Origin: a virus
Length of the DNA: 64,000 nt
Virus record (IMG/VR): IMGVR_UViG_3300042894_004766
Location: 35,792 to 99,791 of that record
Reading direction: 5' to 3' (one strand)
Position numbers and translations under genes: made by a program. Numbering within the stretch: the first letter of the stretch is position 1; each line of letters opens with the position of its first letter. A model generated the notes under the pieces. It was given only the letters and a program-made list of their open reading frames with translations. It searched no databases and was not told the origin of the DNA. Positions 1 to 25,836 of the stretch are shown here, in pieces.

Positions 1-672
1 ACAAAAGATAGTATTGTTAAATCACCAAAAGAACCAGAAATAGTTGATAATAAAGATATAAAGAGTAAAAATGTTACAAAAACTAAGGTAAAAAATGATA
101 CACCGATAATTAAACCAAGTGAAATTAGACCTAGAGGTTTAATTGCTTACTCTGTCCCTACTGAAATGGAAGTTGGTGATGATTACTTAGTAAAAGTAAG
201 AATAAGTAAGAAGGATGATAGAACAGTTTTATTAGTTGGTGATAGAGAAATTCCTATATCAGATAATTTAGAAGATGTTAGAGTTGAATCCATAACAGTT
301 TCTCCAATAATGTCTGCAAGTTTATTATCAAGTAAAAGAGATTTTGAAATAACTTCATTATCAACAGAAATTCAAAATATAGATGATGAGGGATATACTG
401 AATGGAGTTGGAGTGTAATTCCTTTACAAGGTGGTGAAAATAATTTAAAACTTAATGTAAAAATTAGAATACAAGAAGAAGGTAAAGACTATTATAAGGA
501 TATTACCGTCTTTGAGAGAAAGATAAAAGTCAAGTCTAATCTGGGTTCCAGTATAAAAGACTTTATATTCAAAAACTGGGAGTGGTTTATGGGTGTAATT
601 TTTATTCCACTTTTTCAATGGTTTTGGCTATTGTGGAAGAGAAGAAAAGAAAAAAAAGAAGAAGATGTTTAA
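1..672 (+). CDS. Membrane-anchored beta-rich protein, 5' end outside window
   Basis: The frame is open from base 1, so this is the C-terminal 223 residues of a longer protein. A Lys/Thr/Pro-rich linker is followed by a beta-rich stretch starting near GLIAYSVPTEMEVGDDYLV. The chain ends in one tryptophan-rich transmembrane helix (around FMGVIFIPLFQWFWLLW) and a Lys/Arg/Glu tail that is probably cytoplasmic. From memory, Bacteroidetes proteins of multidomain signalling or conflict systems can end in a similar beta-sandwich plus Trp-rich membrane helix, but this is recall and was not tested. The N-terminal effector domain, if any, is not visible. An ATG at 166 lies inside the frame and is not the likely true start. 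Confidence 0.6.
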   Translation, partial: TKDSIVKSPKEPEIVDNKDIKSKNVTKTKVKNDTPIIKPSEIRPRGLIAYSVPTEMEVGDDYLVKVRISKKDDRTVLLVGDREIPISDNLEDVRVESITVSPIMSASLLSSKRDFEITSLSTEIQNIDDEGYTEWSWSVIPLQGGENNLKLNVKIRIQEEGKDYYKDITVFERKIKVKSNLGSSIKDFIFKNWEWFMGVIFIPLFQWFWLLWKRRKEKKEEDV

Positions 673-737
673 TTACATCTTTTTTTATTATAAACATAAT
701 TGTATAATTTGAATACAAATAAAAATAAATAAATATT

Positions 738-1970
738 ATGGATAATATAAATCTAGTAGAGTCTTTTTCAGAGTTAAAAGACATAAAAAACATTGATAAG
801 GAATCAATGATTAAAGTAATGCAAGAAGTTTTCAGAACTATTATTGTTAAAAAATATGGTTCTTCTGATAATTTCGACGTTATTGTAAATCCTAATAAAG
901 GTGATTTAGAAATCTGGAGAAACCGAACTATTGTTGAAGATGATTATGAAGATTTTGATGAAAATCTACATATTACATTAAGTGATGCTCTTAATGTAGA
1001 ACCTGACTTTGAAGTTGGAGAGGATTTAACAGATGAAGTTAAAATTACTGACTTTGGAAGACGTTCAATTTCATCAATTCGTCAAATACTTAAATCTAAA
1101 ATTATTGATTTGGGTAAAGAAACTTTGTATAAAAAATATAAAGATAGAGAAGGAGAGATATTCACTTGTGAAGTTCATCAAATTTTAAGAAAAGAAACTA
1201 TTGTTATTGATGATGAGGGTAATGAATTTGTTTTACCTAAAACTGAACAAGTACCTGGTGACTTTTATAGAAAAGCTGACTCAATTAGAGCGATTTTACA
1301 AAGTGTAACTATTGAAAATGGTAAACTTTTTATGACATTATCAAGAACTTCTAATAAATTCTTAGAAAAATTATTTGAACTTGAAATACCTGAAGTATTT
1401 GATGGTTTAATCACAGTTAAAGCAGTTGTTAGAGAACCTGGTTTTAAAGCAAAAGTTGCAGTTGAGTCTTATGATGATAGAATTGATCCAGTTGGAACTT
1501 GTGTTGGAGTTAAAGGTAGTAGAATACATAGTATTGTAAGAGAACTTAATAATGAAAACATTGATGTTATCAATTACACTACAAATAAATCATTATTTGT
1601 TATGAGAGCACTTGGTCAAAGTAAATCAACTGTTGAGTTAAATGAAGAGAAGAAAACTGCTAATGTGATTATACCTTCTGAAAATATTTCGTTAGCAATC
1701 GGTAAAGGTGGTATGAATATTAAACTTGCAAGTAAAATAAGTGGATATAAAATAAATGTATTTTCTGATGTTGAACACAATGAAGACGTTTTATTAGAAG
1801 ATTTCTCTGATGAAATTGATGGTTGGATTATTGATGAGTTTAGAAAAGTTGGATTTGACACTGCTAAAAGTGTATTAAAAGCAGACTTTAATTACATTGT
1901 AAAACAAACAGATCTTGAAGAAGAAACAATAAGAGAAGTTATTAGAATTTTAGAAATAGAATTTAATTAA
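738..1970 (+). CDS. nusA: NusA transcription elongation/termination factor, Bacteroidetes type
   Basis: NusA binds RNA polymerase and nascent RNA and controls pausing, termination and antitermination. The 410 residues show the complete bacterial order: N-terminal polymerase-binding domain (about 1-125), S1 domain (about 135-200), KH1 with DPVGTCVGVKGSRI at 250-263 (GxxG at 257-260), and KH2 with AIGKGG at 320-325. The short C-terminal tail matches my memory of Bacteroidetes NusA. The length equals the usual host form, and no domain is lost. A strong hairpin terminator follows the stop. A full-length NusA next to phage genes is unusual. I infer acquisition from a host and use in redirecting host polymerase, perhaps together with the gp55-like sigma at 62 kb. 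Confidence 0.95.
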   Translation: MDNINLVESFSELKDIKNIDKESMIKVMQEVFRTIIVKKYGSSDNFDVIVNPNKGDLEIWRNRTIVEDDYEDFDENLHITLSDALNVEPDFEVGEDLTDEVKITDFGRRSISSIRQILKSKIIDLGKETLYKKYKDREGEIFTCEVHQILRKETIVIDDEGNEFVLPKTEQVPGDFYRKADSIRAILQSVTIENGKLFMTLSRTSNKFLEKLFELEIPEVFDGLITVKAVVREPGFKAKVAVESYDDRIDPVGTCVGVKGSRIHSIVRELNNENIDVINYTTNKSLFVMRALGQSKSTVELNEEKKTANVIIPSENISLAIGKGGMNIKLASKISGYKINVFSDVEHNEDVLLEDFSDEIDGWIIDEFRKVGFDTAKSVLKADFNYIVKQTDLEEETIREVIRILEIEFN

Positions 1971-1999
1971 AAAAAGAGACTCAAATGAGTCTCTTTTTT
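1971..1999. terminator. Bidirectional terminator between nusA and nuclease gene
   Basis: A perfect AGAGACTC/GAGTCTCT stem with a short A-rich loop is flanked by A and T runs. It lies exactly in the gap between two convergent genes. Confidence 0.85.
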
Positions 2000-2579
2000 A
2001 TTTTATTAAGTAAAGTTTAAAGTCACTAGACTTTGGTCTCTCATTTACAAAGTAATACTTTTCTGTTATACCATTATATTTTATAGTTTTAAGAAAAGCA
2101 TCTGGTACTGTTGCTCCAGTTGGTAACTTAATTGATTTATTAGAAAAGATAAGTTTTATTTCAACATCCACTGTATATTTTTTAGCTAGTTCTCTCTCAT
2201 ATACTTCAAGAAATCTCCAAGTTCCTCTATTTAAGTATTGATCTTGTAATGTACAGTTTAAATAAGTGAAAGTTTTAAATAACATTACTTTATCACAATT
2301 AAAGTCTGCTGCTGGTGCACAATGACCTTTGTCATAAATATTATTCTCATAATCCTTTGCATCGGATGTTTTATAACTCTTTTCAGTATAGAAGTCCATA
2401 CCCTGTCTTGATGCTTTACCATCTTGACAAAGTACACGGTACTTAATTCTTAATGGTTGTTCAAACTTTTCTGAATACGACACTTCAAAAATATCTGTTT
2501 TAACTAACACACTATCTCTAATAACTTGAGAGTAACTAATAGTTGTTACAAATAATAAAATTGATAATAATTTCTTCAT
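1998..2579 (-). CDS. Secreted DNA/RNA non-specific endonuclease (NUC1/DRGH family)
   Basis: The first 18 residues form a typical Bacteroidetes signal peptide (MKKLLSILLFVTTISYSQ), so the product should leave the cytoplasm. The core carries the beta-beta-alpha-metal nuclease signature: YDKGHCAPAADF around 82-93, with catalytic His86 in a DKGH variant of DRGH, then LNC...Q...LNRGTW..LE at 107-125 supplying the metal-binding Asn. At 193 residues it is a compact member. Family enzymes cleave DNA and RNA without sequence preference. In a phage it could degrade extracellular or periplasmic nucleic acid, help lysate clearance, or block competing DNA; the role is inference. An AATATATA motif lies 22-36 bases upstream. 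Confidence 0.85.
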   Translation of the reverse strand: MKKLLSILLFVTTISYSQVIRDSVLVKTDIFEVSYSEKFEQPLRIKYRVLCQDGKASRQGMDFYTEKSYKTSDAKDYENNIYDKGHCAPAADFNCDKVMLFKTFTYLNCTLQDQYLNRGTWRFLEVYERELAKKYTVDVEIKLIFSNKSIKLPTGATVPDAFLKTIKYNGITEKYYFVNERPKSSDFKLYLIK

Positions 2580-2600
2580 TTCTTCATTTTTTTTAGCTTA

Positions 2601-2630
2601 TTTTTATATATTAAACTTAATATATAAAAA
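2601..2630. promoter_or_regulatory. Divergent AATATATA promoter pair in a near-perfect inverted repeat
   Basis: Each half reads TTAATATATAAAAA outward, one toward the secreted nuclease and one toward the 51-residue membrane protein. The halves match at 14 of 15 positions. This is the motif found upstream of many genes in the window; the promoter role is inferred. Confidence 0.45.
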
Positions 2631-2631
2631 T

Positions 2632-2787
2632 ATGAAAAATATATTTGGTGTTTTTTTATTGATTATCTCTCTTGTAATAGGGGCCTTGGTAGATATGAAC
2701 TTCTTTATACAAGTTAGACTTCCTATATTTAGTTCTTTTGTTATATTCTTATTAGGAATATATTTACTTATTGAAAAGAAAGATTAG
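2632..2787 (+). CDS. Small two-helix membrane protein
   Basis: A 51-codon frame starting MKNIFGVFLLIISLVIGALV. It has two hydrophobic helices separated by a short loop (DMNFFIQVRLP) and ends in a charged IEKKD tail. Size and topology fit a small holin-like or envelope protein, but no family is recognised. The start codon follows an AATATATA motif by a few bases. It diverges from the secreted nuclease gene and overlaps the next gene by 4 bases at the 3' ends. A lysis role is only a possibility. Confidence 0.6.
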   Translation: MKNIFGVFLLIISLVIGALVDMNFFIQVRLPIFSSFVIFLLGIYLLIEKKD

Positions 2788-2954
2788 TTTACAACTACAT
2801 AAACCATTATCTTACTATGTTCTTTGATAAATTTAATCTCACCATAAAATCCTAGTTCTTTGGCTTTTTGTTCATATTTATCATAAATCTCATCAAAGTT
2901 ATTATCAACAACTTTGACTTTCTCAATTCCTAGTTTTTTTAATAATAATTCCAT
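2784..2954 (-). CDS. Small hypothetical protein, 56 aa
   Basis: This short frame begins MELLLKKLGIEKVKVVDNNF and is rich in Lys, Glu and hydrophobic residues, consistent with a small alpha/beta fold. It fills the gap between two plus-strand genes. The 3' end overlaps the small membrane protein gene by 4 bases. No function is recognised; the coding call rests on codon usage like its neighbours and exact packing. Confidence 0.5.
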   Translation of the reverse strand: MELLLKKLGIEKVKVVDNNFDEIYDKYEQKAKELGFYGEIKFIKEHSKIMVYVVVN

Positions 2955-3005
2955 ATTGTATATATTTTATATTTCAACTCCTAAGAATAATTTCATATAA
3001 TTATT

Positions 3006-3515
3006 ATGAAATTAAAAGTTTACATTTCCGGATACGGTGCTGAAGTTACTCAAGGAACCTTAACAAATGAAAAAGTTGAGAAAATATACGAGTCACATGA
3101 TTCATTAGAAGAATACTTTAGTCAATATGTTGATGATGATTTTAGTTGGTATGAGATTGATGATAACTTTCATTGCTCTGCTGCTTATTTAGAAGAATCT
3201 TCTATTCAAATTATTGACGAACAAGGTGCAACTATATATGAAAGACCTTGTGATGAATTGATTTATGATGAAGTAATAACAGAACCTATTTATTCTACTG
3301 ATGAGGAATGTGCTATTACCTGTGTATCTACTGAAAAAGGTACTTTTTTTGAAGGAGATTTTGAAATTGAAGAATTTAATCCAGAGTTACTTACTTTGAA
3401 AATTAAAAGATTGGAAAGTTTTAAAATGGTTTCTGAAGTATTCTATAATGGTGTAGAAATACCTGGTGATTTTGTTTTCTCTAATGGGAAAGACTTTAAT
3501 GTTTATATTGACTAA
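3006..3515 (+). CDS. Hypothetical acidic protein, 169 aa
   Basis: The product is strongly acidic and rich in Tyr, Ser and beta-branched residues, starting MKLKVYISGYGAEVTQGTL. The composition suggests a soluble beta-rich protein. No signal peptide, membrane helix or catalytic motif is visible. The stop overlaps the 3' end of the opposite-strand tagged gene by 4 bases. I recognise no family. Confidence 0.7.
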   Translation: MKLKVYISGYGAEVTQGTLTNEKVEKIYESHDSLEEYFSQYVDDDFSWYEIDDNFHCSAAYLEESSIQIIDEQGATIYERPCDELIYDEVITEPIYSTDEECAITCVSTEKGTFFEGDFEIEEFNPELLTLKIKRLESFKMVSEVFYNGVEIPGDFVFSNGKDFNVYID

Positions 3516-4186
3516 CTCTTCTTTAAAGGTATTGCAGGATTTACATCAAAATTATCATTAAGATAAGTTTTTAACTCATTTTCTATATAATGATCTGGTA
3601 CTAATTTACCATCATCTTCCTTTTCCATTTTATCACTAATAAATGATGTGAAACTATTTACTACTTCAGGTTTAAGTGCTTCAATCAATCTATCCGATAC
3701 TACAAATGCTCTTGAAAATCTATCTTTTAGTGGAACTTCACCTTCTGGTAACATCATATAAGTATCAATAGTTTTCTTTAAGAAATCGGTATATTTAGAT
3801 TGTGGTTCTAAATATTCAAATAATGTATCAAATACTCTGTGTACTAAACGAGAGGAACCAAATATTGTACCTACTACTGCAAGTACTGGAAAGAAAGGTG
3901 CTAATGATAAAGGAATTGCAATTGGTAAGATATTAAATATATTTTTCTTTAGTGTAGTTTTCTTTTTTGCGTCAACCGCGTCTTTAAATATTGCTCTAAG
4001 AATACCAAATGTAAAATTCTCACCTTTAGAATGTAAGTAAGTAGCTAAGTGTCCTTGTTTAGATAAAGAGATTTGTTTTTTCAATTCTTCTTTATCAGTC
4101 ACACCCATTTTAATAAGTTGTTCTTTTATATTTTTATCATATCTTTCTACGATTAGAAAATCACTATATTTCTTTACTTTTTTCAT
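3512..4186 (-). CDS. Tagged putative internal virion protein with hydrophobic hairpin
   Basis: The N-terminus MKKVKKYSDFLIVERYDK is a divergent copy of the N-terminal tag shared by many proteins here (M-[KR]-x-hydrophobic-K-x-[FY]-x-x-F). Residues about 85-110 form a proline-broken hydrophobic segment (FNILPIAIPLSLAPFFPVLA) that could insert in a membrane. The rest is helical and charged. No enzyme motif is seen. If the tag directs it into the capsid, the membrane segment might act during or after ejection; this is inference. Confidence 0.6.
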   Translation of the reverse strand: MKKVKKYSDFLIVERYDKNIKEQLIKMGVTDKEELKKQISLSKQGHLATYLHSKGENFTFGILRAIFKDAVDAKKKTTLKKNIFNILPIAIPLSLAPFFPVLAVVGTIFGSSRLVHRVFDTLFEYLEPQSKYTDFLKKTIDTYMMLPEGEVPLKDRFSRAFVVSDRLIEALKPEVVNSFTSFISDKMEKEDDGKLVPDHYIENELKTYLNDNFDVNPAIPLKKS

Positions 4187-4234
4187 ATTAAATTATTATT
4201 GTTTTCAATCTATATAAAAACAAAGATTATTTTT

Positions 4235-4247
4235 TACTATATATAAA
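4235..4247 (+). promoter_or_regulatory. Candidate late-type promoter for topoisomerase gene
   Basis: TACTATATATAAA ends three bases before the ATG. It belongs to the recurrent TATATATA class seen close to start codons throughout the window. Confidence 0.35.
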
Positions 4248-4250
4248 ATT

Positions 4251-5594
4251 ATGATAACAGAAAAAACAATTTCAGACTTTCTTTCACTTGAGTATAAAGA
4301 GTTCGCGATGTATTCTATTGAAGGTAGGGCAATACCATCAGTTGTTGATGGTTTTAAACCAACACAGAGAAAGATCATTCACATCTCCAATCAAATATGG
4401 AGAACAGGTAATGAGAAGAATCTAAAGGTATTTCAATTGGCTGGTAAAGTAGCATCAGATGCTTTCTATCATCATGGTAATACCTCATTAGAAAATGCTA
4501 TTGTTACAATGGCACAAAAATTTAAAAATAATGCTGCTTTATTAGAAGAAGATGGACAATTTGGTTCATTACGTTCTCCACAACCGGGTGCTGCTAGATA
4601 TATTGGAACAAAATTAAGTGATAACTTTAGATTGATTTATAAAGATTTTGATTTACTTGAATATAAAGAAGAAGAAGGTGAAACAATTGAACCTAGATAC
4701 TTTCTACCAATCATTCCAACTGTATTGCTGAATGGTTCAAGTGGAATTGCAGTTGGATTTGCTTCTAATGTGTTAAATAGAGACATTAAAAGCATTATTG
4801 ATACTTGTGTGAGAGTTATTGAGGGTAAAAAAATAACGAGTATTAAACCGTCTTTAAATGAGTTTACAGGTGAATTCATACAAGATAAGGAAAATCCTAA
4901 GAGATGGATAATAAGAGGTTTATTTCAAAGAGTAAATACATCAACTGTTAGAATAACAGAATTACCACCTTCTATGACTTATGAAAAGTATGAAGAGATA
5001 CTAGATAAACTAGTTGATAATAAAGATATTGTATCATATGATGATAATTGTAAAGATAATATAGATTATACAATTAAATTCCAAAGAGCTGTTCTAGAGG
5101 GTATTGATGATACTGCGATGATAAAGTTGTTAAAATTAGAAGAATCATCAACTGAGATATTTACAACACTTGATGAGTTTGGTAAATTAAAAATATTTGA
5201 AACATCTGAAGAGATTATAGAATACTTTACTAAATTTAGACTAACTTATTATGATATAAGAAAACAACACACTTTGGATAAACTTAATAGAGAATTAAAG
5301 ATATTAAGTAATAGAGGTAGATTTATTAAAGCTATTTTAGATGAGAAACTAAAAATAAATAATGTTTCTAAGGCAGAAATTATATTAAGTATAGAATCAC
5401 TAGGTTTAGAACAAATAGATGACTCTTATGATTACTTATTAAGAATGTCACTTTACTCTTTAACAAAAGAGTTATTTGAAAAAATGAAGCAGGACTTCAC
5501 TGCGAAAAAAGAAGAAATTAAAATATTAGAATCTACTGATCCAAAAGATATGTATCTACTAGATTTAAGTGAATTAAAAAAGAAGTTTAAATAG
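4251..5594 (+). CDS. gp52: Type II DNA topoisomerase, GyrA/ParC-like subunit (T4 gp52-like)
   Basis: This is the DNA-cleaving subunit of a type II topoisomerase, which passes duplexes through a double-strand break during replication. The start FLSLEYKEFAMYSIEGRAIP and VVDGFKPTQRK are hallmarks of the GyrA/ParC/gp52 breakage-reunion domain. The catalytic tyrosine is Tyr117 in PGAARYIG. NGSSGIAVGFAS follows. At 447 residues it matches T4 gp52 and lacks the GyrA C-terminal pinwheel. No ATPase subunit (gp39/gp60 type) lies in this window, so it should be elsewhere. Confidence 0.93.
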   Translation: MITEKTISDFLSLEYKEFAMYSIEGRAIPSVVDGFKPTQRKIIHISNQIWRTGNEKNLKVFQLAGKVASDAFYHHGNTSLENAIVTMAQKFKNNAALLEEDGQFGSLRSPQPGAARYIGTKLSDNFRLIYKDFDLLEYKEEEGETIEPRYFLPIIPTVLLNGSSGIAVGFASNVLNRDIKSIIDTCVRVIEGKKITSIKPSLNEFTGEFIQDKENPKRWIIRGLFQRVNTSTVRITELPPSMTYEKYEEILDKLVDNKDIVSYDDNCKDNIDYTIKFQRAVLEGIDDTAMIKLLKLEESSTEIFTTLDEFGKLKIFETSEEIIEYFTKFRLTYYDIRKQHTLDKLNRELKILSNRGRFIKAILDEKLKINNVSKAEIILSIESLGLEQIDDSYDYLLRMSLYSLTKELFEKMKQDFTAKKEEIKILESTDPKDMYLLDLSELKKKFK

Positions 5595-5624
5595 TTGAAC
5601 ATTTGATTTTTTTCACTATATTTG
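5594..5624 (+). promoter_or_regulatory. Host-type (Bacteroidetes) promoter
   Basis: GTTG, 19 bases, then TATATTTG fits the Bacteroidetes primary sigma consensus TTG-N17-23-TAnnTTTG. It lies 17 bases before the ATG of the nucleotidyltransferase, so that gene may be expressed early by unmodified host polymerase. Confidence 0.5.
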
Positions 5625-5641
5625 TAAAAATTATAATAAAG

Positions 5642-6910
5642 ATGAAAGAACAATTAAACCAACTTATAAATGAAAGATCTCCTGGATCTAAACCAATCTT
5701 CTTGGTTATTAGGGGATCACACGCATACGGAACTAATATAGAGACTTCTGATACCGATTATGCGGGTGTATTTATCCAATCATTGGATGATATTCTTGGT
5801 AGTAAATACAAACAGCAAGTAAATGATGATACTAATGATACTGTAATCTATGAGTTACGTAGATTTTTAGAATTATTGGCTAGTAATAACCCAACAGTTT
5901 TAGAATTACTTAATACTCCAGAAGATTGTATTATCTATAAAGATCCTATTTTTGATTTAATATTAGAAAATAGAGAACAATTTATTACTAAAATCTGTGC
6001 TAACTCTTTTGGTGGTTATGCAAGAGCTCAAATTGGTAAAGCAAAGGGTCAAAATAAAAAACAAAACTGGGAAAAAGATAAGGTAACTCGTAAAGATTTA
6101 CTTGACTTTTGTTACGTTATTCAAGGAACAAAAGCTATTCCATGGAAAAAATGGAATGATGGTAGATTTGATGAAAGATTTATTGGTGCAGTAAATGTTC
6201 CATATGCAAAAGATGTTTATACCTTATTCTATGATACTGAATCTGATATGATGTTCTCTGGTAAAGAGAAAAAAGAGTTAAGTGATATGATGATTCAACA
6301 ACGTAAAGACTCTGGTCGAGCATTGGGTCTTGGTTATAAAGGATTGGTTAAAGTTGGTTCGACTACTATTGATAGAAGTAAACTTACTAATATGACTGAT
6401 GAACAAATTGATAGACTTGAGTTAGTTTTTCAAAAAGAAGCAGAAAAGAACTTAGGTGTCTCAAATCAATTGAGGCTATCTTCAATTCCAAAAGGACAAG
6501 AACCATTTTGTACTATTACTTATAACAAAGATGGATATTCAGAACATTGTAAAGACTTTAGAGAGTATGAAGAATGGTTATCAAAAAGAAATCTTCAAAG
6601 ATGGGTAGATGTTAAGTCTCACGGTCAACAAATTGATGGTAAGAATATGATGCACTGTCGTAGATTGATGGATATGGCTCGTGAGATTGCAGAAGGTAAG
6701 GGTATCCTTGTTAAAAGAGATAATGCACAAGAACTTCTTTCAATTAGAAGAGGTGAAATAGATTTACAAACTTTGATTGATCATGTTGAAAGTGAGATTA
6801 AAGAAGTAGATACTTTGTTTAAAGAATCAGATTTACCAGAAAAGGTAGATGAAAATTTTATAAATAGTTTATTAGTAAAAATTAGAAAATCAGTTTATGG
6901 TATACAGTAA
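5642..6910 (+). CDS. Predicted nucleotidyltransferase (Pol-beta superfamily, RlaP-like)
   Basis: The active site of minimal nucleotidyltransferases is clear: RGSHAYGT at 24-31 and SDTDYAGV at 36-43, giving the GS and DxD metal ligands. About 420 residues follow, mostly helical. The family includes RNA-ligase-associated and predicted tRNA/RNA-modifying nucleotidyltransferases; the substrate here is unknown. I start at 5642 rather than an upstream in-frame ATG because the host-type promoter sits between them and MKEQLNQLINERSPGSKP begins the conserved region. Its 3' end overlaps the next gene by 14 bases, suggesting one transcript. Confidence 0.85.
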   Translation: MKEQLNQLINERSPGSKPIFLVIRGSHAYGTNIETSDTDYAGVFIQSLDDILGSKYKQQVNDDTNDTVIYELRRFLELLASNNPTVLELLNTPEDCIIYKDPIFDLILENREQFITKICANSFGGYARAQIGKAKGQNKKQNWEKDKVTRKDLLDFCYVIQGTKAIPWKKWNDGRFDERFIGAVNVPYAKDVYTLFYDTESDMMFSGKEKKELSDMMIQQRKDSGRALGLGYKGLVKVGSTTIDRSKLTNMTDEQIDRLELVFQKEAEKNLGVSNQLRLSSIPKGQEPFCTITYNKDGYSEHCKDFREYEEWLSKRNLQRWVDVKSHGQQIDGKNMMHCRRLMDMAREIAEGKGILVKRDNAQELLSIRRGEIDLQTLIDHVESEIKEVDTLFKESDLPEKVDENFINSLLVKIRKSVYGIQ

Positions 6911-7520
6911 CATTGCAATTATTATAGGGTTCTTTTGTTTAGGATATCTATTTAATAATCTTTTAAGAAAGATTGTTGAGGGATATAACGATAGTAAGTA
7001 TCGAAAGGAAATTACGTCTATTTTTCAAAATGTATTAGATAATCTTTATACAAATAAGACAAGTTTTGTTAGTCGAATCAATAACACTGTTACTATTATG
7101 ACAGAGTTGAATGAGGGTATAGTAAATGTTGTTTATCTTATGGATAGACGTGATATTGCTATATTTAAGGGAGATAAGTGTATCTATACATCAGATTCAA
7201 TAGATAAATCATTGGTTGATGAAATCATTGTGGGTTTAGATGTTTTCTATAAACGTGAGATAAATGATGTTGTAAATGTAATGGGAATGGTCTTCTCTCG
7301 TGATGAATTTGAGAACAAATTCAAAATAAAAGTAGAAGATATGAAGAAGGGTATGTTTGGTGGTTTTCCAAAAGAAGAAATGTCAGATATTGAAAAGATA
7401 AAAAGACAGAATGAGGTAAAGTTTAATATAGATGATATATTAGATAGAATTACATCTGTTGGTATTGAAAATCTTACACCAGAGGAAAAAAGATTTTTAG
7501 ATAGTTATAACAATGAATAA
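6897..7520 (+). CDS. Membrane-anchored hypothetical protein with Bacteroidetes-type C-terminal motif
   Basis: An N-terminal helix (SNIAIIIGFFCLGYLF) should anchor it in the inner membrane, with about 180 residues on one side. The C-terminus DDILDRITSVGIENLTPEEK resembles a short helical motif found at the end of many Bacteroidetes membrane proteins (ILDKIS..G...LT.EEK.FL). A related version occurs in the gene at 42913. It overlaps both neighbours by 8-14 bases and is probably translationally coupled. Function unknown. Confidence 0.7.
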   Translation: MVYSNIAIIIGFFCLGYLFNNLLRKIVEGYNDSKYRKEITSIFQNVLDNLYTNKTSFVSRINNTVTIMTELNEGIVNVVYLMDRRDIAIFKGDKCIYTSDSIDKSLVDEIIVGLDVFYKREINDVVNVMGMVFSRDEFENKFKIKVEDMKKGMFGGFPKEEMSDIEKIKRQNEVKFNIDDILDRITSVGIENLTPEEKRFLDSYNNE

Positions 7521-7854
7521 TCTAGAATTAAATGGATTTAACTCTAATTTTGGTGACTTTAAAATAGTATCAATTTTAAGTGATTATGAGAATCACTGGA
7601 TATTAGGTTTAACTTCTATTATTCTTGAAAGAGATAGTTTGTATTTTTATATTCAAGATGATAAAGAAAAGATTTCCGATGTTTCTAAGATGCCAATTTA
7701 TATAAAAGAGGATTGGATAAATTATAATAAAAAAGATTTAAGTTTAGATATTATAAACAAACATATTAAGTATTATAAAAATGATGATGAAGATATGTTT
7801 AATTTACTAATGACAATACGAAGAGATTTTATACTTACAAAGTATGTTAAATAA
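7513..7854 (+). CDS. Hypothetical protein, 113 aa
   Basis: It starts inside the end of the preceding gene (8-base overlap) and ends at a strong terminator, so it is the last gene of a three-gene run beginning with the nucleotidyltransferase. The product is acidic, mixed alpha/beta and soluble. It contains no motif I recognise. Confidence 0.65.
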   Translation: MNNLELNGFNSNFGDFKIVSILSDYENHWILGLTSIILERDSLYFYIQDDKEKISDVSKMPIYIKEDWINYNKKDLSLDIINKHIKYYKNDDEDMFNLLMTIRRDFILTKYVK

Positions 7855-7884
7855 AAAAACCACTCATTGAGTGGTTTTTTTTTA
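7853..7884. terminator. Bidirectional terminator
   Basis: An AAAACCACTCA/TGAGTGGTTTT stem with flanking A and T runs sits between convergent genes. Confidence 0.85.
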
Positions 7885-7889
7885 TTAGA

Positions 7890-8465
7890 TTAAAGTGGTA
7901 ATTCTTCCTCTTCGTCTTCTTCTTTAGGTTCTTCTTCTTCTTGAGCTTGTCCTTGTGCAGGTGCTTGAGCTTGTCCTTGTGCAGGTGCTTGAGCTTGTCC
8001 TTGTGCAGGTGCTTGAGCTTGTCCTTGTGCAGGTTCTTCAAATTCTCCTTCTGCCGGTGCTTGAGCTTGTGGTTGTGCTTCAGTTTGTACTTGAGCTTGT
8101 GGTTGAGTTTGAGCTTGTGGTTGAGCTTGTGGTTCAGTTTGTACTTGAACTTGTCCTTGACCTTGTGTCTGTGCTTGAGTTTGACCACCCATTATAGCAC
8201 CACCAGGAATCTTATCTATATCTAAGAAAGTAGTTGTTACATATTTAATAATTTCTTCTGCAATATCTACATCACCAAAAAATTGACGTAAGTTTTTACC
8301 TGTTGTATCTTTTACTTTTTTAACATAAGCGTTGATTAAAGATTGAGGTAAGTCAATCATAGTTTTTACTTTATAAAGATCGTTAACTTGGAAAACAGAT
8401 TCTTTTATAATCTCTTCTCTATTTTTTTGAATACGAAATTTTTCAAATGCTTTAACGTGTTTCAT
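7890..8465 (-). CDS. Tagged protein with Gln/Ala/Pro repeat tail
   Basis: The N-terminus [19 protein letters not shown] is a good copy of the shared tag. Residues to about 95 look globular. The remainder is low complexity: QAQTQ-type repeats, then four copies of an 8-residue QAQAPAQG unit, then an acidic tail ([16 protein letters not shown]). Such flexible acidic tails occur in phage internal and scaffold-like proteins, but no function is recognised. Long plus-strand frames across the repeat are shadows of its biased codons. An AATATATA motif lies 26 bases upstream. Confidence 0.7.
7941..8036. repeat. Four tandem 24-bp direct repeats in coding sequence
   Basis: Copies start at 7941, 7965, 7989 and 8013 and are almost identical. 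Each encodes eight residues, so copy-number change keeps the frame. This is a likely slippage hotspot. Confidence 0.9.
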
Positions 8466-8533
8466 GTTTTTGTTTATTTTTTATATGATTTATATATTAA
8501 GAATAAAAAGCCATTTTTTGTATTTTTTATAAA

Positions 8534-9052
8534 TTATTGAATAATACCAAATGCTGCCAGTACTAATCCTATTATTACTACAGATCCACCTATTCCACCT
8601 ACTACCATCTTTGTTTTTAGTCTTGATAATTGTTTATTCTTTTCATCAATTACATTTTGTCTATTAACTACTTCTGTTTGTAAAACTTGATTTTTTTGCA
8701 TCCAGCCAATTATTTCTTGTTGTAGTGCATTTATTTTCTCATCTTTCTTAACTAATTGACTATCTTGTTTGGTGATAACAACGTCTAGTTTAGCAATTAC
8801 TTCATCTTTATCATTGATTACCTTTACACATATATTTTCATAATCTTGCATTTCTGCTTGTAACTGTTCAAACTTTTCTAATATATTTGAATTATTATTA
8901 AGTTTCATTGCTTGTGGTATAGTCATAACTATAACTTTTTGTCCAAGTGAATCTACTTCAAACCTTGGATATTTAATTTTTTGTGTAACTTGTGAAAACA
9001 TTGTTGTAAAAACTAATGTCATTAATAGTGTGAATAACTTTCTCATTTTCAT
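8534..9052 (-). CDS. Secreted coiled-coil protein with C-terminal membrane helix
   Basis: The N-terminal signal peptide (RKLFTLLMTLVFTTMFSQ) is followed by a soluble region. Then comes a long coiled coil (about residues 85-145) and a C-terminal helix GGSVVIIGLVLAAFGII. This topology puts the coiled coil in the periplasm, anchored in a membrane. It lies 11 bases downstream of a second coiled-coil envelope gene with a LysM domain. The pair resembles a spanin-like or envelope-spanning device by layout only; sequence homology is not recognised. The start could be the ATG at 9052 or the one two codons later. Confidence 0.65.
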   Translation of the reverse strand: MKMRKLFTLLMTLVFTTMFSQVTQKIKYPRFEVDSLGQKVIVMTIPQAMKLNNNSNILEKFEQLQAEMQDYENICVKVINDKDEVIAKLDVVITKQDSQLVKKDEKINALQQEIIGWMQKNQVLQTEVVNRQNVIDEKNKQLSRLKTKMVVGGIGGSVVIIGLVLAAFGIIQ

Positions 9053-9063
9053 TTATTTATTTT

Positions 9064-9675
9064 TTAGTTTTTAATTGTTAAGGTTTGTCCTACTTGTAGA
9101 CCTTTATTTTTTAGAAACTTATTTTGTTCCATTATTTCAGAAACACTTACATTATAAAGTTTAGATAAAGAATATAATGTTTCTTTTCCTTCAACTTTGT
9201 GTAGTATTTTATCTTTTACTTTATTTTCATTTGTTTCGGGTAATTTATCTACCTTTTTCTTTTCTATAGAAGATGTATTTTTTATTAAGTCTTCTAATAG
9301 TTCATCATCGGTAAGAACTTTAGGATTATTTCTTAACTCTTCAATTTCCTTTCTAGTCTTTGCCATACCACCCTGAAGTCTTGATAGATCTTTTTTAGCA
9401 TTCTCTGCATCTTCTTTGGCTCTTTGAGCATTTGCTTTTGCAGTACCTACTTCAATGGCTAGTTTTTTATCCTCTGCATCTTTTTTATTATAAATATCTT
9501 GCCATATTGCAATTTTTGCTTCTGCTGCTTCTTTCTCTTTTTCTAATTTTTTATATTCTTCTTCAAGTTGTTTAACTCTTTGTTTTGATGCATCAAATCC
9601 ACCAAAATACCAAGTAAGACCAAATCCAATAGTTGATACTAGTAAAAATATAATAACAATTTTTTTAAAATCCAT
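9064..9675 (-). CDS. Inner-membrane-anchored coiled-coil protein with C-terminal LysM domain
   Basis: An N-terminal signal anchor (KIVIIFLLVSTIGFGLTWYF) is followed by a long coiled coil rich in Lys, Glu and Ala (about 30-120). A spacer leads to a C-terminal LysM-type peptidoglycan-binding domain (about 158-203, KVEGKETLYSLSKLYNVSVS...LQVGQTLTI). The protein could therefore reach from the inner membrane to the cell wall. With the downstream secreted coiled-coil gene it forms a two-gene unit that I infer acts in lysis or in envelope remodelling. Confidence 0.75.
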   Translation of the reverse strand: MDFKKIVIIFLLVSTIGFGLTWYFGGFDASKQRVKQLEEEYKKLEKEKEAAEAKIAIWQDIYNKKDAEDKKLAIEVGTAKANAQRAKEDAENAKKDLSRLQGGMAKTRKEIEELRNNPKVLTDDELLEDLIKNTSSIEKKKVDKLPETNENKVKDKILHKVEGKETLYSLSKLYNVSVSEIMEQNKFLKNKGLQVGQTLTIKN

Positions 9676-9714
9676 ATTTCTATTATTTTTTATTATATAT
9701 TAAAAAATTATATA

Positions 9715-9722
9715 TATCTTTG
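9715..9722 (+). promoter_or_regulatory. Host-type -7 element TATCTTTG
   Basis: TATCTTTG matches TAnnTTTG and lies 20 bases before the HAD gene ATG. An upstream TTG at consensus distance is not clear, so this is tentative. An AT-rich TATATTAAAA run also lies just before it. Confidence 0.35.
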
Positions 9723-9742
9723 TATAAAATTTTATAGAAAAT

Positions 9743-10255: not shown

Positions 10256-10256
10256 G

Positions 10257-10541
10257 ATGCCAACTATTACTAAGAAAAAAACACAATCTAAAGTACAGGA
10301 GATTTTATCTAAACCTTACAAACTGATACTTCATAACGATGATTATAACTCATTTGATTGGGTTATTGAATGTCTTATGAAAGTATGTAAGCATGAATAC
10401 GAACAAGCAACACAATGTGCTCATATTGTTCACAATAATGGTAAGTGTGATGTTAAGTATGGTGATTTAGAAACCATTTCAGAAATGAAGAATTTACTAA
10501 AATCGGCGGGACTCTCAGTCACTATGGAAGTGAATGAATAA
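10257..10541 (+). CDS. clpS: ClpS adaptor of the Clp protease (N-degron recognin)
   Basis: ClpS delivers N-end-rule substrates to the ClpA/ClpC unfoldase. The 94 residues contain the canonical pocket KLILHNDDYNSFDWVI at 22-37, with Asn27, Asp28 and Asp29 that bind the substrate alpha-amino group, and IVHNNGKC at 57-64 with the conserved His59. The hydrophobic gatekeeper position (Met in E. coli) is Phe34, like Bacteroidetes ClpS from memory. It starts one base after the HAD stop and is followed by a terminator. Phage ClpS could redirect host proteolysis or outcompete host ClpS; this is inference. Confidence 0.92.
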   Translation: MPTITKKKTQSKVQEILSKPYKLILHNDDYNSFDWVIECLMKVCKHEYEQATQCAHIVHNNGKCDVKYGDLETISEMKNLLKSAGLSVTMEVNE

Positions 10542-10571: not shown

Positions 10572-10590
10572 TTTAGAATGATTAAATTTT

Positions 10591-11735: not shown

Positions 11736-13883
11736 TTATTTACCATTACTATTAAACCAATTTATACCAGTTGTATTAGAATCGGTAACTGTTTTATTTC
11801 TATTTAAAATCTTTCTTCTAACATTCAGTAATTGTGTATAATCAACAGTTTCTGTAAATTCAAGATTTCTTAGGCAATCTTCAACATAAATCTTAAATAT
11901 GGGATCCTTTTGTAAAGTATCTTCAACCATCTCTTTAAAATCATTTTTTACAAAAGCAGATGTTGCATTTACAATAGTCATCACACAGTCATCATGTCCA
12001 ACATCTGCTGCATATCTTGTATTACCTGCAGTTGTTGTATGTTTAACAAATGTTGTAATCTCTCTAACAGTTTCCTCATTATTTATAGAAAATCCTTTAG
12101 AAATCATTAAATCTTGATAATCTTTAACCATCATATTCTTATTCTCACCTACTTTTAATCCAACTTTTTCTTCGGTTGCATCTGCTCTATGTTTGTATCT
12201 AAGGAAAATAGATGATCCATAATGATTATTACCATCAAATACGTGAGGTAACTCAGCAAGTAAAGTATTTCCGTAGTTATTTAACTCTAAAACTATCTTA
12301 ACATTATCTGGGTTTAAATATTCAAATGCTAAAATATAAAGTAATTCTGCCAATTGTTTAACTGAAACTAAATTACTTCTATATAAACCAATCTGTTCTA
12401 ATCTAAAGAAATCGGTAACCGATTTATAAGCTAATCTTTGTGATTCAATCGTATCCATATCTTTTTTAGATATTTTAAATATGTTTATGATTGAGTAATC
12501 CTGTCCTAAACCTTCTGCAATATCGACTGATAATATAATTTTCTCATTTTTTCTATTTATAGGCATGAATATTTCATCATCATCAATCCATTTCAAATCT
12601 CGATAACTAAATCGTAACTTATTTTCAAATTCAAATATCTCTTCAAATTTATAATTTTTCTTATTATTTAAAAGACTATCAATTATTGCCTCATTTAATA
12701 ATGACTTACTTGAGTTGATAAATCTTAGACCATATTCTTGATTGAAAGCATCCTCACCACCAATATCTTTTACTGCTTCTTCTTTCCAAGTTGTCATCTC
12801 ACCAATTGCTCTTAAAGGAACTTCAAATCCTTTTGAATCAATAAATGTTAAGTTTTTAACATCCTCATCTGTACATCTCTCATTATTAAATACAGAGATG
12901 ATGTCTTTTTGAAAATCTGAGTTGAATCCCATATGAGTTTTTGTTATATCCTCAGGATATGTTTCTCTAATACCACTAAATATTTGTTCTTTTGTTACAC
13001 CATGTTCATATAATCTATGATCATTTAATCTCAAATAAGTAACAAATCTTCCTGGTACTTGATGCCAGTAAACACGCATCGGTTTGTAGTTATTTTTAAG
13101 TGGATCACCTTCAGGTCTTTCTGCATCTGTTAACAACTTATGGAATAAGTTCATACCATTTGGTGTCGATGTAATAATAATCTTTGAATTTTGTACTGCT
13201 GATACGGTTGGATAAGCAGCGGTATAGTATGGTTCGATAATATTTGAAGGAATATGTGCGAACTCATCAAGATAAAGTACGTCAATGGTAAAACCGATTG
13301 CCGGTGTTTTAGATCTCGCAGATGTTTTTATTCTACATCCGTTTTCAAATGTTAGTGACTTTTGATTCCAAGTTTTAATACCCGGTTTTAAAAAGAATGG
13401 TAATAACGAGTAGATAGATTTAATCTTATCTACAATCTCAACTGCGGTATCTCCTTTATTGGCAACAATCATTATATTTTTATCATTACTAAATAGAATT
13501 GTATGCAACATGAAAATTGATGCTGAGATTGTTTTACCAACCTGACGAGAAGCCATTAAAATATTGAATCTACTATTTACAAAATTATCTAATATTTCTT
13601 TTTGATACTCTCTTAATTTAATTTGACCTACTGATCCATCTTCTGTCTTTACTCTACAATATTGTTCTGTAAAGTAATGCACATCTAACGCACATTTGAT
13701 GTATTCTTCTTGTTCTTCAGGTGACATTCTAAAAGATACACCTGCTCTTCTTAATCCTACTTCAGATTTTAACCAAGGATTTTGGTATCTTTTGATGACG
13801 ATACCGTCATTTATTTTATCTGTTGATTCATCTACCAGCTTCGTGGTAAAGATCATTTGTTTCTCTATTATTTCTTTTGCCAT
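11736..13883 (-). CDS. terL: Terminase large subunit (T4 gp17-like packaging ATPase/nuclease)
   Basis: This motor translocates DNA into the prohead and cuts concatemers. The ATPase domain shows Walker A SRQVGKT at 112-118, Walker B VLYLDEF at 202-208 and coupling motif TSTPNG at 238-243. The RNase H-like nuclease domain begins near 450 with LSVDIAEGLGQDYS (first acidic Asp454); later acidic residues occur in VLELNNYGN and VGHDDCVM. At 715 residues it is slightly longer than T4 gp17 (610). It is divergent from the small helical gene at 13932. Confidence 0.96.
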   Translation of the reverse strand: MAKEIIEKQMIFTTKLVDESTDKINDGIVIKRYQNPWLKSEVGLRRAGVSFRMSPEEQEEYIKCALDVHYFTEQYCRVKTEDGSVGQIKLREYQKEILDNFVNSRFNILMASRQVGKTISASIFMLHTILFSNDKNIMIVANKGDTAVEIVDKIKSIYSLLPFFLKPGIKTWNQKSLTFENGCRIKTSARSKTPAIGFTIDVLYLDEFAHIPSNIIEPYYTAAYPTVSAVQNSKIIITSTPNGMNLFHKLLTDAERPEGDPLKNNYKPMRVYWHQVPGRFVTYLRLNDHRLYEHGVTKEQIFSGIRETYPEDITKTHMGFNSDFQKDIISVFNNERCTDEDVKNLTFIDSKGFEVPLRAIGEMTTWKEEAVKDIGGEDAFNQEYGLRFINSSKSLLNEAIIDSLLNNKKNYKFEEIFEFENKLRFSYRDLKWIDDDEIFMPINRKNEKIILSVDIAEGLGQDYSIINIFKISKKDMDTIESQRLAYKSVTDFFRLEQIGLYRSNLVSVKQLAELLYILAFEYLNPDNVKIVLELNNYGNTLLAELPHVFDGNNHYGSSIFLRYKHRADATEEKVGLKVGENKNMMVKDYQDLMISKGFSINNEETVREITTFVKHTTTAGNTRYAADVGHDDCVMTIVNATSAFVKNDFKEMVEDTLQKDPIFKIYVEDCLRNLEFTETVDYTQLLNVRRKILNRNKTVTDSNTTGINWFNSNGK

Positions 13884-21747: not shown

Positions 21748-24700
21748 ATGGCAATTCAAATTGGAAAATACAAAAGACCTGGTATCTTCATCGAAGAAAT
21801 TGACAAGTCTGTATTCAGTACAGCTACTGTAGAAGGAATAACTAACCTTGTAATGGGAGTTTCTAAAAAAGGACCTGTTAACACACCGATTAGACTAACA
21901 ACTGTAAATGACTTAGAAACAGTTTTTGGTCAGTTGGATAGAAACTTGGAAAGAAAAGGTTCATTTTTTCACAGAACTGTTTCTAAAATGTTAGAAACAA
22001 GTCCTGTTTTCGCAATGAACTTATTGATAACTGATGATACATTAGATATTATTGAATATAAATCTTTGTCTTCTTCTGCGTTAAAAACTAATGATATTAA
22101 GAGAGAAGGACCTTATAGAAGATTCTTTGATACAACTGGTTTCTGGAAGAAAGATACTGAATCATTTATCAATCTAACAAAAAATAATAGTGGATACTCT
22201 GATAGAGCATTTAGCTTTACTAACTTATCTGATAGATATATTACAGTTTTTGTAGTAAAAACTGCTGTATCTGGATTTGATAGAACTTTATTAGAGTGGT
22301 ATGGTTCTATTGAAAAAATGCCTGCTTATGTAAGCACAGTAGATTACGCATCTGACTATATGGTTGATGTTGTAGTTGTAGGTGGTGATTGGTCTAACTA
22401 CAGAGAGTTAGCAGTTGATAACAGATGGGGTCAATATTTTAATGCAGATGGTTTAATTAAAGGTCAATTAAGAAATTTTGCTAATGATAGAAATATGACT
22501 TTATTAGCTTATTATGAAGGTTTGTCATTGATTCCATATTTTAGAGATTTAGATGGTAAAAATATATTTATCGAAACAACAATAAATAGAGATACTGATT
22601 CAACAGGTTTATACTGTGCATTTAATGCAGATTTAGTAGAACAAGACTTCTATACTGGTTTAGTTGACCTTATAGGTGGTACTTTAGTTGGTTCTGAGAA
22701 AAAAACTATTGATTTCTTATCTTACAAAGAAACTATTGTAGAGTCAGTAGAATTTTCACAAGTTCCATTGGATTTACCTGGGAATGTTGTTGCTTTATTT
22801 GGTACTTATTCATATAGTGAAGGTCAATTGGGTCACGCTTATGGTGATCCTGCTCTATCTGGTGTAGTTACTTCAGGTAGATATAGAAGTGCTTGGTTTA
22901 CAGAAGGTGCTGTATTACACGTTAGCGTTTTAGAAGGTGGTCAACCTGGTTCTGGATATACTTATGCTGGCTCTGGTACATCATCAACAATAAATGTTAA
23001 ATATTTTGCGGATAATTCACAATATGAACCATTTTGTGTTATAGGTGGACAATATGTTCCAGTTGTAGGTGGTACTGTATCAACTACATTGAGATCATCA
23101 AACTATCCTTATAGTAATGCAACTGCAAGTTATACAACTGCATTTACTCTTAACTCAAGTGGAGTTATTTCAAGTGTTAGTAGTTATTCTGCTGGTAATC
23201 CTCCATCAGTTGGAGCAAGTGATATAGTTCTAGGTTTCTTAACAGTTGATGTTTATCAACAAGAATTTATTGAATCATCAATAAATTTTGAAGCGGTTAC
23301 ATTAAGTACATCGGGTGGTATATTTGATTATGTTACTCCTGGTTATGTTGAGGGTATTTATGTTACTGACGGTGTTTATAATGACTTTGGATATGGTACA
23401 AGTTCACAACATGACTATTATGTTTATGATTTAAGTAATACTCCTGGTTATGCACAAGGTGATGTTCAAGTGGTTTTCTGGGGAACAAATGCTGCGGCAA
23501 CCTCTAAAAACTATAACCAATATAGAAAAATAAAAATGTTTAATACAATTTTATCTTTCATCAATAGTTCTTATAAAGATAGAGCTACTATGATTATTAG
23601 TGAAGATGTAGAAGGTAATAGAACTAAGAAAAGTTTAGCGGGTATGACTGTAACAAATATCGTTACATCAACATCTCAAAACAAATCTTTTGTACTTAAA
23701 ACTGGATTATCTGATGTATCTTACCTAGTTGCAGGTAGATTGATTTTCTATAAAGAAGACAATGAGTTTATACTTGGTACTGATGGTTTACGTACTCATG
23801 ATATTGCTGCTACACCAGCACAAGGTATTGTTGCTAAATATTCTACATTCTATGAGAGATATTTTAATGGTTTAATCAATACTCGTGACTACTTCTATGA
23901 TAATAGACTACTTTGTGGTTCTGATGGAATTGTTAATGATCTTATTGATAATGATGGTAATGTTTTAAAAGTAAATGTTACTTTTGTAAATGGTGAAGCT
24001 TCTCCAAGTCCAACAAATATTGCCCCAACATCCGGAGTTACTGGAGATTATGCTGGATATAATTATATTGTTTTCGAAGTAGATGGAATTACCGGTGCTC
24101 AAGCAGAAGATACTTTAGAATTAGGTTTATTGGAAGAAATTTCATTCCCTCAGTCTGAGAGTAATACTGGTGTATTTACAATAACTCAAAACACTGTTAA
24201 TCCACAATATAGTGCAGTTCAATTAGCAACTGCATTAGGATTTACTGCAAGTAATAATTTCATTGCTTATCCTGTATCTGAGAATGTTACATTTGAACAA
24301 GTATTGGATGTTACTATGGTTTATAATAATTTAGATAAACATTATTTAAAAATGCTTCTTAATTTAGATGGTACTTTAGAAGTAGACTTTACAGAAAAAT
24401 CTTTAGAATCAATAGAAAATATTGATATACGAACTAACTTTACGTTTAATGTACAGTCAGAATTAAGTAACTTAAAACAAACTATTGAAATTGAAACTCC
24501 ATCTGGATATGTTGAAGTTCCTAATAAAATTTTAGTAAATGGTTCAAGATATACTGAATTAAAAGTTGGTGATTTCTTATTGGCAGATAATGATAATGTT
24601 GAATTAGCAGTTGGTCAATCACCAAGAAATCTTACAAGAGTTTTAAGTAAAAGACAATATGCTGGTAATACTAGTTTATCTGAAATTACTTGTGATGCAA

Positions 24701-25836
24701 AAATATTAAGAACACCATATACTAATGATGTTGGTGGTCAAGATTATCAAACAACAAGATATTCAAGTGTTGATCAATATACAACAACTTATAAAGGTAT
24801 TTCAATGAAAGGATTTAGAATGAGACAAGCTTCTTTACCAGATGGTACAGAAAACAGACAAAATCAAGTTTTAAACTTAGTCGCTAAAGGAACTCCATTA
24901 TTCAAAGCTTTAATCAATAAAGAAGCATTTGACTTTAGATATTTAATAGATTCATTTGGATTAGGTTTAACTGAAAGATCAAAACAACAATTAGTAGATA
25001 TTTGTGGTGAAAGATTAAATGTATTTGGTTTCATAAATATGCCATCATTAAAATCATTCAAAAACTCTTCATCTCCTAGTTTCGTAAACAATGAAGGTAC
25101 TTTACAAGTTGAGTATATTGCTAAAGGTGGTGACCCAGAAAGTAATCCTGCATTCCTTTACTCATTCGGTGATGGAAATGGTGTTTCTACAGTTGGTTAT
25201 TTCACACCTTACGTAACGGTAAATGATAATGGTAGACCATTAGATTTCCCGCCTGCGTCTTATGTGGCAACTACTTTTATGAGAAAACACATTTCTAACG
25301 TAAGTTCAGTTACTCCTTGGACAATTGCAGCTGGTGTTACAAATGGTAGAATTACTAATATTGCTGGTGTTGAACACGAATTTGATCCGACAGATATTGA
25401 ATTCTTAAATCAAGCACAAATGAATCCAATTGTATTCAAAAGAAATAGAGGATTTGTTATTGAGACAGAAAACACTGCTTTAACACTTTATAAATCAGCA
25501 TTATCTTTAATCCACGTGAGAGAAGTTCTAGTTGAGTTAGAAAGAGAGCTTTCTGCAATGTTACTTGATTACCAATGGAAATTCAACACTCCTGATGTTA
25601 GAGCTGAAATTAAATTAAGAGCTGATGTTATTTGTGAAACTTATGTAAACAGAAATGGTTTATTTAACTACTTCAACAAAATGGATGATGAGAATAATAC
25701 ATCTGATATTATTGATAGTCAAATTGGAGTTCTTGATACTTATGTAGAGCCAATTAAAGGTATGGGTATCATTGTAAATAATGTTACAATTTTAAGAACT
25801 GGTGCTATTGCTGCTGGAGGATTCCAAAACGCATAA
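21748..25836 (+). CDS. gp18: Contractile tail sheath protein (T4 gp18-like), with large insertion
   Basis: The sheath surrounds the tube and contracts to drive injection. The N-terminus (KYKRPGIFIEEIDKSVFST) and the C-terminal domain (YQWKFNTPDVRAEIKLRADV, then the GMGIIVNNVTILRTG strand) are typical of T4-like sheaths. The YLIDSFGLGLTERSKQQLVD helix also fits the family fold. At 1362 residues it is about twice T4 gp18 (659). The excess is in the middle, where residues about 365-590 are Gly/Ser/Tyr/Thr-rich beta sequence likely to be surface domains. A terminator follows. Confidence 0.93.
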   Translation: MAIQIGKYKRPGIFIEEIDKSVFSTATVEGITNLVMGVSKKGPVNTPIRLTTVNDLETVFGQLDRNLERKGSFFHRTVSKMLETSPVFAMNLLITDDTLDIIEYKSLSSSALKTNDIKREGPYRRFFDTTGFWKKDTESFINLTKNNSGYSDRAFSFTNLSDRYITVFVVKTAVSGFDRTLLEWYGSIEKMPAYVSTVDYASDYMVDVVVVGGDWSNYRELAVDNRWGQYFNADGLIKGQLRNFANDRNMTLLAYYEGLSLIPYFRDLDGKNIFIETTINRDTDSTGLYCAFNADLVEQDFYTGLVDLIGGTLVGSEKKTIDFLSYKETIVESVEFSQVPLDLPGNVVALFGTYSYSEGQLGHAYGDPALSGVVTSGRYRSAWFTEGAVLHVSVLEGGQPGSGYTYAGSGTSSTINVKYFADNSQYEPFCVIGGQYVPVVGGTVSTTLRSSNYPYSNATASYTTAFTLNSSGVISSVSSYSAGNPPSVGASDIVLGFLTVDVYQQEFIESSINFEAVTLSTSGGIFDYVTPGYVEGIYVTDGVYNDFGYGTSSQHDYYVYDLSNTPGYAQGDVQVVFWGTNAAATSKNYNQYRKIKMFNTILSFINSSYKDRATMIISEDVEGNRTKKSLAGMTVTNIVTSTSQNKSFVLKTGLSDVSYLVAGRLIFYKEDNEFILGTDGLRTHDIAATPAQGIVAKYSTFYERYFNGLINTRDYFYDNRLLCGSDGIVNDLIDNDGNVLKVNVTFVNGEASPSPTNIAPTSGVTGDYAGYNYIVFEVDGITGAQAEDTLELGLLEEISFPQSESNTGVFTITQNTVNPQYSAVQLATALGFTASNNFIAYPVSENVTFEQVLDVTMVYNNLDKHYLKMLLNLDGTLEVDFTEKSLESIENIDIRTNFTFNVQSELSNLKQTIEIETPSGYVEVPNKILVNGSRYTELKVGDFLLADNDNVELAVGQSPRNLTRVLSKRQYAGNTSLSEITCDAKILRTPYTNDVGGQDYQTTRYSSVDQYTTTYKGISMKGFRMRQASLPDGTENRQNQVLNLVAKGTPLFKALINKEAFDFRYLIDSFGLGLTERSKQQLVDICGERLNVFGFINMPSLKSFKNSSSPSFVNNEGTLQVEYIAKGGDPESNPAFLYSFGDGNGVSTVGYFTPYVTVNDNGRPLDFPPASYVATTFMRKHISNVSSVTPWTIAAGVTNGRITNIAGVEHEFDPTDIEFLNQAQMNPIVFKRNRGFVIETENTALTLYKSALSLIHVREVLVELERELSAMLLDYQWKFNTPDVRAEIKLRADVICETYVNRNGLFNYFNKMDDENNTSDIIDSQIGVLDTYVEPIKGMGIIVNNVTILRTGAIAAGGFQNA

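Follow-up and report, generated by a model that had tools for sequence, protein, structure and literature searches.

A complete nusA gene of Bacteroidota type carried by a phage

Well-studied phages use the NusA of their host, a protein that rides RNA polymerase to control pausing and termination, and the Nus factors were first found as host proteins that phage lambda has to borrow. To our knowledge, NusA acts only with multi-subunit RNA polymerase. In lambda-type phages the virus supplies an adaptor and borrows host NusA (PMC7171158). General bacterial elongation factors are carried by phages in the case of NusG (family phrog_6386), although that is another factor. Huge phages are likewise already known to capture host genes for information processing; Al-Shayeb et al. 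(2020) described four largest complete genomes of 634, 636, 642 and 735 kb, manually curated and circularised, and placed five genomes of >634 kb, with predicted Bacteroidetes hosts, in the Mahaphage clade (PMC7162821). The main text of that paper makes no mention of NusA, and a full-text search of the open literature returned no report of a phage-encoded NusA, a listing in some supplementary table being possible. PHROGs version 4 contains no NusA family, and the BFVD viral structure library yielded S1-domain look-alikes only.

Here we analyse a nusA gene in a stretch of 64,000 nucleotides (the window), which comprises positions 35792-99791 of a 99,791-base viral record. In contrast to lambda-type phages, the phage represented by this record brings its own NusA, and so turns the lambda arrangement round. 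The protein resembles cellular Bacteroidota NusA in its domain order, GxxG loops and tail, at 55-60% identity, but the cellular gene belongs to a rimP-nusA-infB operon and the phage gene lies outside any such operon. The phage protein also differs in forming its own branch with one other phage sequence (L015; support 98/93) and in the faster divergence of its RNA-binding domains.

A complete nusA among phage genes

The nusA open reading frame is complete, and its parts and surroundings are given in Table 1. Against NCBIfam TIGR01953, the equivalog_domain model for NusA, which spans the NTD-S1-KH1-KH2 core, the protein scored 337.8 bits (cut-off 253.4) and covered positions 2-338 of the 340 in the profile. 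Pfam recognised NusA_N at full domain length (PF08529, 1.7e-27), the NusA-like KH_5 (4.8e-22) and, more weakly, KH2, for which KH_NusA_C (5e-7) fell slightly below its cut-off and KH_1 and KH_2 exceeded theirs. No Pfam S1 match was obtained, the S1 domain being recognised through alignment to solved NusAs and through the structural model. A profile of the protein matched the solved NusAs of Thermotoga, Mycobacterium and E. coli, all matched structures being cellular. The AlphaFold2 model (mean pLDDT 85.6, pTM 0.64) had NusAs as its top 23 matches in the PDB, and its S1-KH1-KH2 portion superposed on the M. tuberculosis NusA-RNA complex (2ATW/2ASB) at 2.3-2.5 A over 218 columns. Both GxxG loops are kept, and the C-terminal ~60 residues constitute the conserved Bacteroidota tail. 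Hence the initial annotation was correct in describing a complete Bacteroidetes-type NusA with two intact GxxG loops and the tail typical of that phylum.

Table 1. Coordinates of nusA, its domains and other features in the window and in other viral records
Feature	Record	Coordinates	Strand	Remarks
nusA leader, intergenic	window	673..737	+	AT-rich; conserved among relatives (alignment)
nusA	window	738..1970	+	start ATG; 410 aa
nusA NTD (RNA polymerase-binding)	window	738..1121	+	aa 1-128, boundary approximate; PF08529 aa 5-126
nusA S1	window	1122..1358	+	aa 129-207, boundary approximate; alignment to 1HH2/1L2F/6J9E; model strands 141-202
nusA KH1	window	1359..1637	+	aa 208-300; PF13184 aa 234-293; GVKG loop aa 257-260
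nusA KH2	window	1638..1781	+	aa 301-348; PF23095/PF07650/PF00013; GKGG loop aa 322-325
nusA Bacteroidota C-terminal helical tail	window	1782..1967	+	aa 349-410; kept in cellular Bacteroidota NusA; helices in model
Intrinsic-terminator-like hairpin	window	1970..1999	+	stem GAGACTC/GAGTCTC; nusA and the nuclease gene converge on it
DNA/RNA non-specific endonuclease	window	1998..2579	-	PF01223 6.6e-19; conserved neighbour by synteny
Phage topoisomerase II subunit	window	4251..5594	+	phrog_551 2.4e-144; 80% identity to LR745206
ClpS adaptor	window	10257-10541	+	
Terminase large subunit	window	11736..13883	-	phage hallmark
Tail sheath	window	21748..25836	+	phage hallmark; phrog_34521 4e-89
MK.(I/L)K.(F/Y)..F-like proteins	window	3512-4186, 7890-8465, 14590-15381, 17186-17683, 30429-30821, 30837-31415	-	and others
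MK.(I/L)K.(F/Y)..F-like proteins	window	21106-21687, 43367-43648, 56557-57174, 57184-57630	+	and others
Gln/Ala/Pro-rich protein	window	7890-8465	-	PAQGQAQA repeats
1270-aa ORF	window	39045-42857	-	contains 40001-42000, G+C 0.357
NusG, full, KOW domain	LR756504 (L157)	463272-463604		phrog_6386
NusG, full, KOW domain	LR745206 (L152:7698-8234)	485697-486233	-	phrog_6386
NusA_N/KH_5 ORF and T4-type terminase region	L180	38-2161 and 4345-5742		
PiT-type phosphate transporter	L100	1887-2951	-	
Synthetase domain, class I Glu/Gln-like	L100	3982-4821	-	279 aa
ClpA-like AAA protein	L100	4983-7043	+	
Synthetase domain, class I Leu/Met-like	L100	10395-11684	-	429 aa
S-adenosylmethionine synthetase	L100	13093-14178	-	
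Synthetase domain, class II	L100	15459-16301	-	280 aa
PhoH-like gene interrupted by LAGLIDADG element	L174 (G006 phage)	1856-3631	-	

In the window nusA constitutes a separate unit, without rimP or infB and with no IF2 motif nearby. The stem of the terminator-like hairpin is identical across nine aligned sequences and its loop is variable. A sigma-70 promoter scan of the leader gave no signal exceeding shuffles, and Rfam had zero matches in window positions 1-12000.

NusA is ordinarily a cellular protein, and several database 'phage' records that carry it proved chromosomal here, both of which lend some colour to the explanation that host DNA was misassembled onto the phage, or that the gene is a recent and useless passenger. 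Among these records, MT835665 is a piece of Bacteroidota chromosome carrying rimP-nusA-infB, and in OQ572408 (Pseudomonas phage Y6), OR846587 (Enterococcus) and CAKLQH020000005 (Acinetobacter, CAKLQH02) nusA adjoins infB; two IMG/VR contigs (L178 and L179) were rejected likewise, having chromosomal flanks with a RimP-like ORF directly upstream. Against this explanation stand the gene's surroundings. It sits 36.5 kb from the contig end, on the same contig as hallmark genes for terminase and tail sheath. Eight further IMG/VR contigs encode the protein at 84-92% identity and two more at 71-74%, and these ten, each from a different IMG dataset, have the same gene order: nusA is followed by the nuclease, and the genes around it lead from topoisomerase by way of RlaP-like nucleotidyltransferase and ClpS to terminase, within the stretches examined. 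One 179-kb contig (G004) is collinear with the window's contig nearly gene for gene, upstream and downstream. The rimP-nusA-infB arrangement that marks a bacterial chromosome is absent from all phage loci examined; an IF2 motif adjoins nusA in cellular loci and in the mislabelled 'phage' records, and is absent beside every phage locus here. Another NusA lies in a curated circular genome (LR756504). The left end is not a chimera with host chromosome, the artefact that the initial annotation had singled out: the window edge is not the contig end, and the order recurs in ten contigs besides the window's own.

Nor does the gene resemble a recent arrival, the closest cellular NusA found being at most ~60% identical. 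Comparison of the window gene with relatives in its clade, as the initial annotation had proposed, gave dN/dS of 0.09-0.28 (dS 0.3-0.8), which denotes purifying selection and hence a gene that is maintained; together with the low cellular identity, these values rule out a decaying or recently acquired passenger. The window nusA is, as first proposed, a genuine phage gene, found among phage genes in independent assemblies, and we consider misassembly or an idle copy exceedingly improbable. The presence of NusA in a viral metagenome is thus no safe sign of contamination by host DNA.

Phage lineages and the origin of the gene

The window terminase is 76% identical to that of LR745206 (634,780 bp) and 73% to that of LR756502 (642,428 bp), and more distantly related to those of LR756501 (735 kb, 44%) and LR756504 (636,363 bp, 42%); that these LR accessions correspond to the curated genomes of PMC7162821 is our own assignment. 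Given the terminase kinship with the 634- and 642-kb genomes, the whole genome is probably ~600 kb long, of which the 99.8-kb contig would make up about one sixth. LR745206, a 634-kb Mahaphage among the closest whole genomes by terminase, also has the topoisomerase neighbourhood in common with the window, but a profile search found no NusA in it and it carries NusG instead. The 642-kb Mahaphage LR756502 differs similarly: its terminase is close to that of the window, yet tblastn, which recovered the NusA of LR756504, found none in LR756502 or LR745206. Hence NusA is not essential to such phages.

The suggestion that related phages be searched for nusA was thus borne out in part, these two genomes yielding none and three other sources yielding full-length proteins. 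L015 encodes a NusA 54% identical to that of the window, in a phage whose terminase is 78.5% identical. The NusA of LR756504 (51%) is encoded mid-genome in a curated circular phage of 636 kb; this is a full-length NusA from a related huge phage, although its terminase is only 42% identical and the best tree places it with other cellular NusAs. Contigs L017-L019 encode a full NusA at 49% identity. A 141-kb contig of the L017-type phage (G006) gave no terminase or sheath match, and encodes phage ssDNA-binding and head-tail adaptor proteins and protein starts that resemble, by eye, those of the window's virion proteins; this type of phage also has a locus with 14 tRNAs. Altogether, complete NusAs above the TIGR01953 cut-off are found in four separate phage lineages.

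Elsewhere the gene is rare, as the initial annotation had supposed from the habits of phages in general. Scans of 2.9 million IMG/VR contigs with conserved NusA peptides, the second scan using peptides from diverse bacterial NusAs, recovered this group and three small contigs only, and two of these three bear a RimP-like ORF immediately upstream. On a high-GC viral contig of 6.6 kb (L180), an ORF with NusA_N and KH_5 is separated from a T4-type terminase by no more than 2.2 kb; it is possibly a second, unrelated phage NusA, and possibly a contig artefact.

A tree of 60 NusAs, from phages and cellular Bacteroidota, placed the phage proteins within Bacteroidota NusA. The window clade and L015 (98/93) fall inside the Bacteroidales/Flavobacteriales part, with the cellular sister not resolved, three cellular sequences join LR756504 (98/82) and L017 lies within a flavobacterial group (100/97), such that the phage NusAs need three label changes on the tree. 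Approximately unbiased (AU) tests rejected a single clade of all phage sequences (p = 0.012), which rules out a single ancestral phage NusA, and a clade of window and L017 (p = 0.037), and kept a shared origin of window and LR756504 (p = 0.135). With one common origin rejected, nusA was therefore captured at least twice, and three times in the best tree, where the third capture is uncertain owing to the long phage branches. A terminase tree, with two very long branches, was too poorly resolved to weigh gain against loss of nusA. To judge from the open papers searched, this repeated capture and maintenance of NusA is new among the host information-processing genes taken by huge phages.

Partner factors and the role of a phage NusA

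The RNA polymerase beta subunit was sought in seven phage records, the complete LR756504 among them, with no match, whereas all 14 control genomes gave one; therefore the role of the protein is most likely exercised on the host polymerase. All 148 Bacteroidota genomes sampled contain nusA. The host cell is thus very likely to have a nusA too, and the phage protein would most likely take the position of the host's NusA on the polymerase while infection lasts. The window's contig is a fragment, and genes for NusG, sigma factors or RNA polymerase may lie elsewhere in this particular genome. LR756504 encodes, besides NusA, a KOW-domain NusG and a pair of proteins whose sigma-70 region 2 scores above cut-off; G006 encodes one protein of the latter kind.

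Divergence between the two halves of the protein was compared as the ratio of S1-KH1-KH2 to NTD plus tail, scaled by the spread among cellular proteins. The ratio is 1.20 for the window, 1.47 for L015, 1.38 for LR756504 and 1.26 for L017, against a cellular median of 0.96 (range 0.79-1.43), and for each main lineage of phages at most 3 of the 37 cellular proteins have an equal or higher ratio, the number for L009 being 4. A column bootstrap (5-95%) excluded 1 for three lineages; the window's interval, 0.97-1.55, includes it. Thus the RNA-binding half seems to have diverged faster than the half that binds polymerase; the difference is modest, and suggestive rather than decisive. This difference is the only hint toward the reprogrammed pausing, protected transcripts or evasion of host exclusion that the initial annotation had envisaged.

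We consider it probable that the captured nusA is kept as a working gene whose product acts on host RNA polymerase and alters pausing, termination or antitermination. A huge, Mahaphage-like phage of Bacteroidota would have taken the gene from a Bacteroidota host and retained it in functional form. After infection, NusA would be produced from its own small unit, bind host RNA polymerase through the conserved NTD and, in competition, replace or supplement host NusA on elongation complexes; the faster-diverging S1-KH1-KH2 surface could then shift pausing, termination or antitermination toward phage transcripts. As in lambda-type antitermination, the phage would control elongation through NusA on the host polymerase. 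In LR756504, NusA, NusG and sigma factors might together amount to a partial takeover kit for that enzyme. A bolder version, which we advance tentatively from these gene contents, is that such a self-supplied set (NusA, NusG and sigmas, with no polymerase) re-equips the host polymerase, that the RNA-binding half of NusA has been retuned to phage transcripts, and that host and phage genes might consequently obey different rules of pausing and termination.

A plainer role would be one of dosage, in which phage NusA adds to the host's supply or substitutes for host NusA degraded or titrated in a long infection, its activity unchanged. Conservation of every domain and of both GxxG loops, purifying selection, and the presence on phages of other housekeeping copies (for example MetK, ClpA and ClpS) agree with this, but the RNA-binding domains have diverged faster in all four lineages, albeit modestly, and relatives live without NusA; we regard dosage as rather unlikely. 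As a further alternative, phage NusA might serve antitermination or counter-defence, either in a phage-specific antitermination complex or by keeping transcription going where a host system blocks or modifies host NusA or RNA polymerase. The NusG and sigmas of LR756504 and the NusG of LR745206 would suit such a scheme, and phages do work through host NusA, lambda Q being an instance (PMC7171158). Neither NusB nor Rho was found in the phage records searched, however; no candidate for a lambda N/Q-like adaptor or a nut/qut-type site was seen near nusA, and Rfam matched nothing in window positions 1-12000. This alternative seems to us improbable.

Whichever role applies, in these phages a viral NusA and its natural host counterpart would act on one polymerase. 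Comparing the two could separate polymerase-binding from RNA-reading functions and could reveal how phages of the largest kind, having no polymerase themselves, direct transcription in the host.

Other features of the phage contigs

An N-terminal motif of the form MK.(I/L)K.(F/Y)..F begins 15 of the 108 ORFs on the contig; among 458 internal Met positions it occurs at 3. NusA lacks it. The motif resembles the capsid-targeting sequence of T4, and the proteins bearing it may form a large group packaged in the virion. A ClpA-like AAA protein in phage contig sequence (L100) begins with a similar motif, and the window encodes a ClpS adaptor; a possible function of the two is phage-steered proteolysis of host proteins. 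L100 further encodes a phosphate transporter, an S-adenosylmethionine synthetase and three short aminoacyl-tRNA synthetase catalytic domains, of which the two of class I look shorter than the usual enzymes and so may have another role. In the G006 phage a PhoH-like gene is interrupted by a LAGLIDADG element. The repeat-bearing Gln/Ala/Pro-rich protein of the window varies in length among relatives, and the 1270-aa ORF in Table 1 contains a segment of raised G+C, the genome as a whole having a G+C of 0.28.
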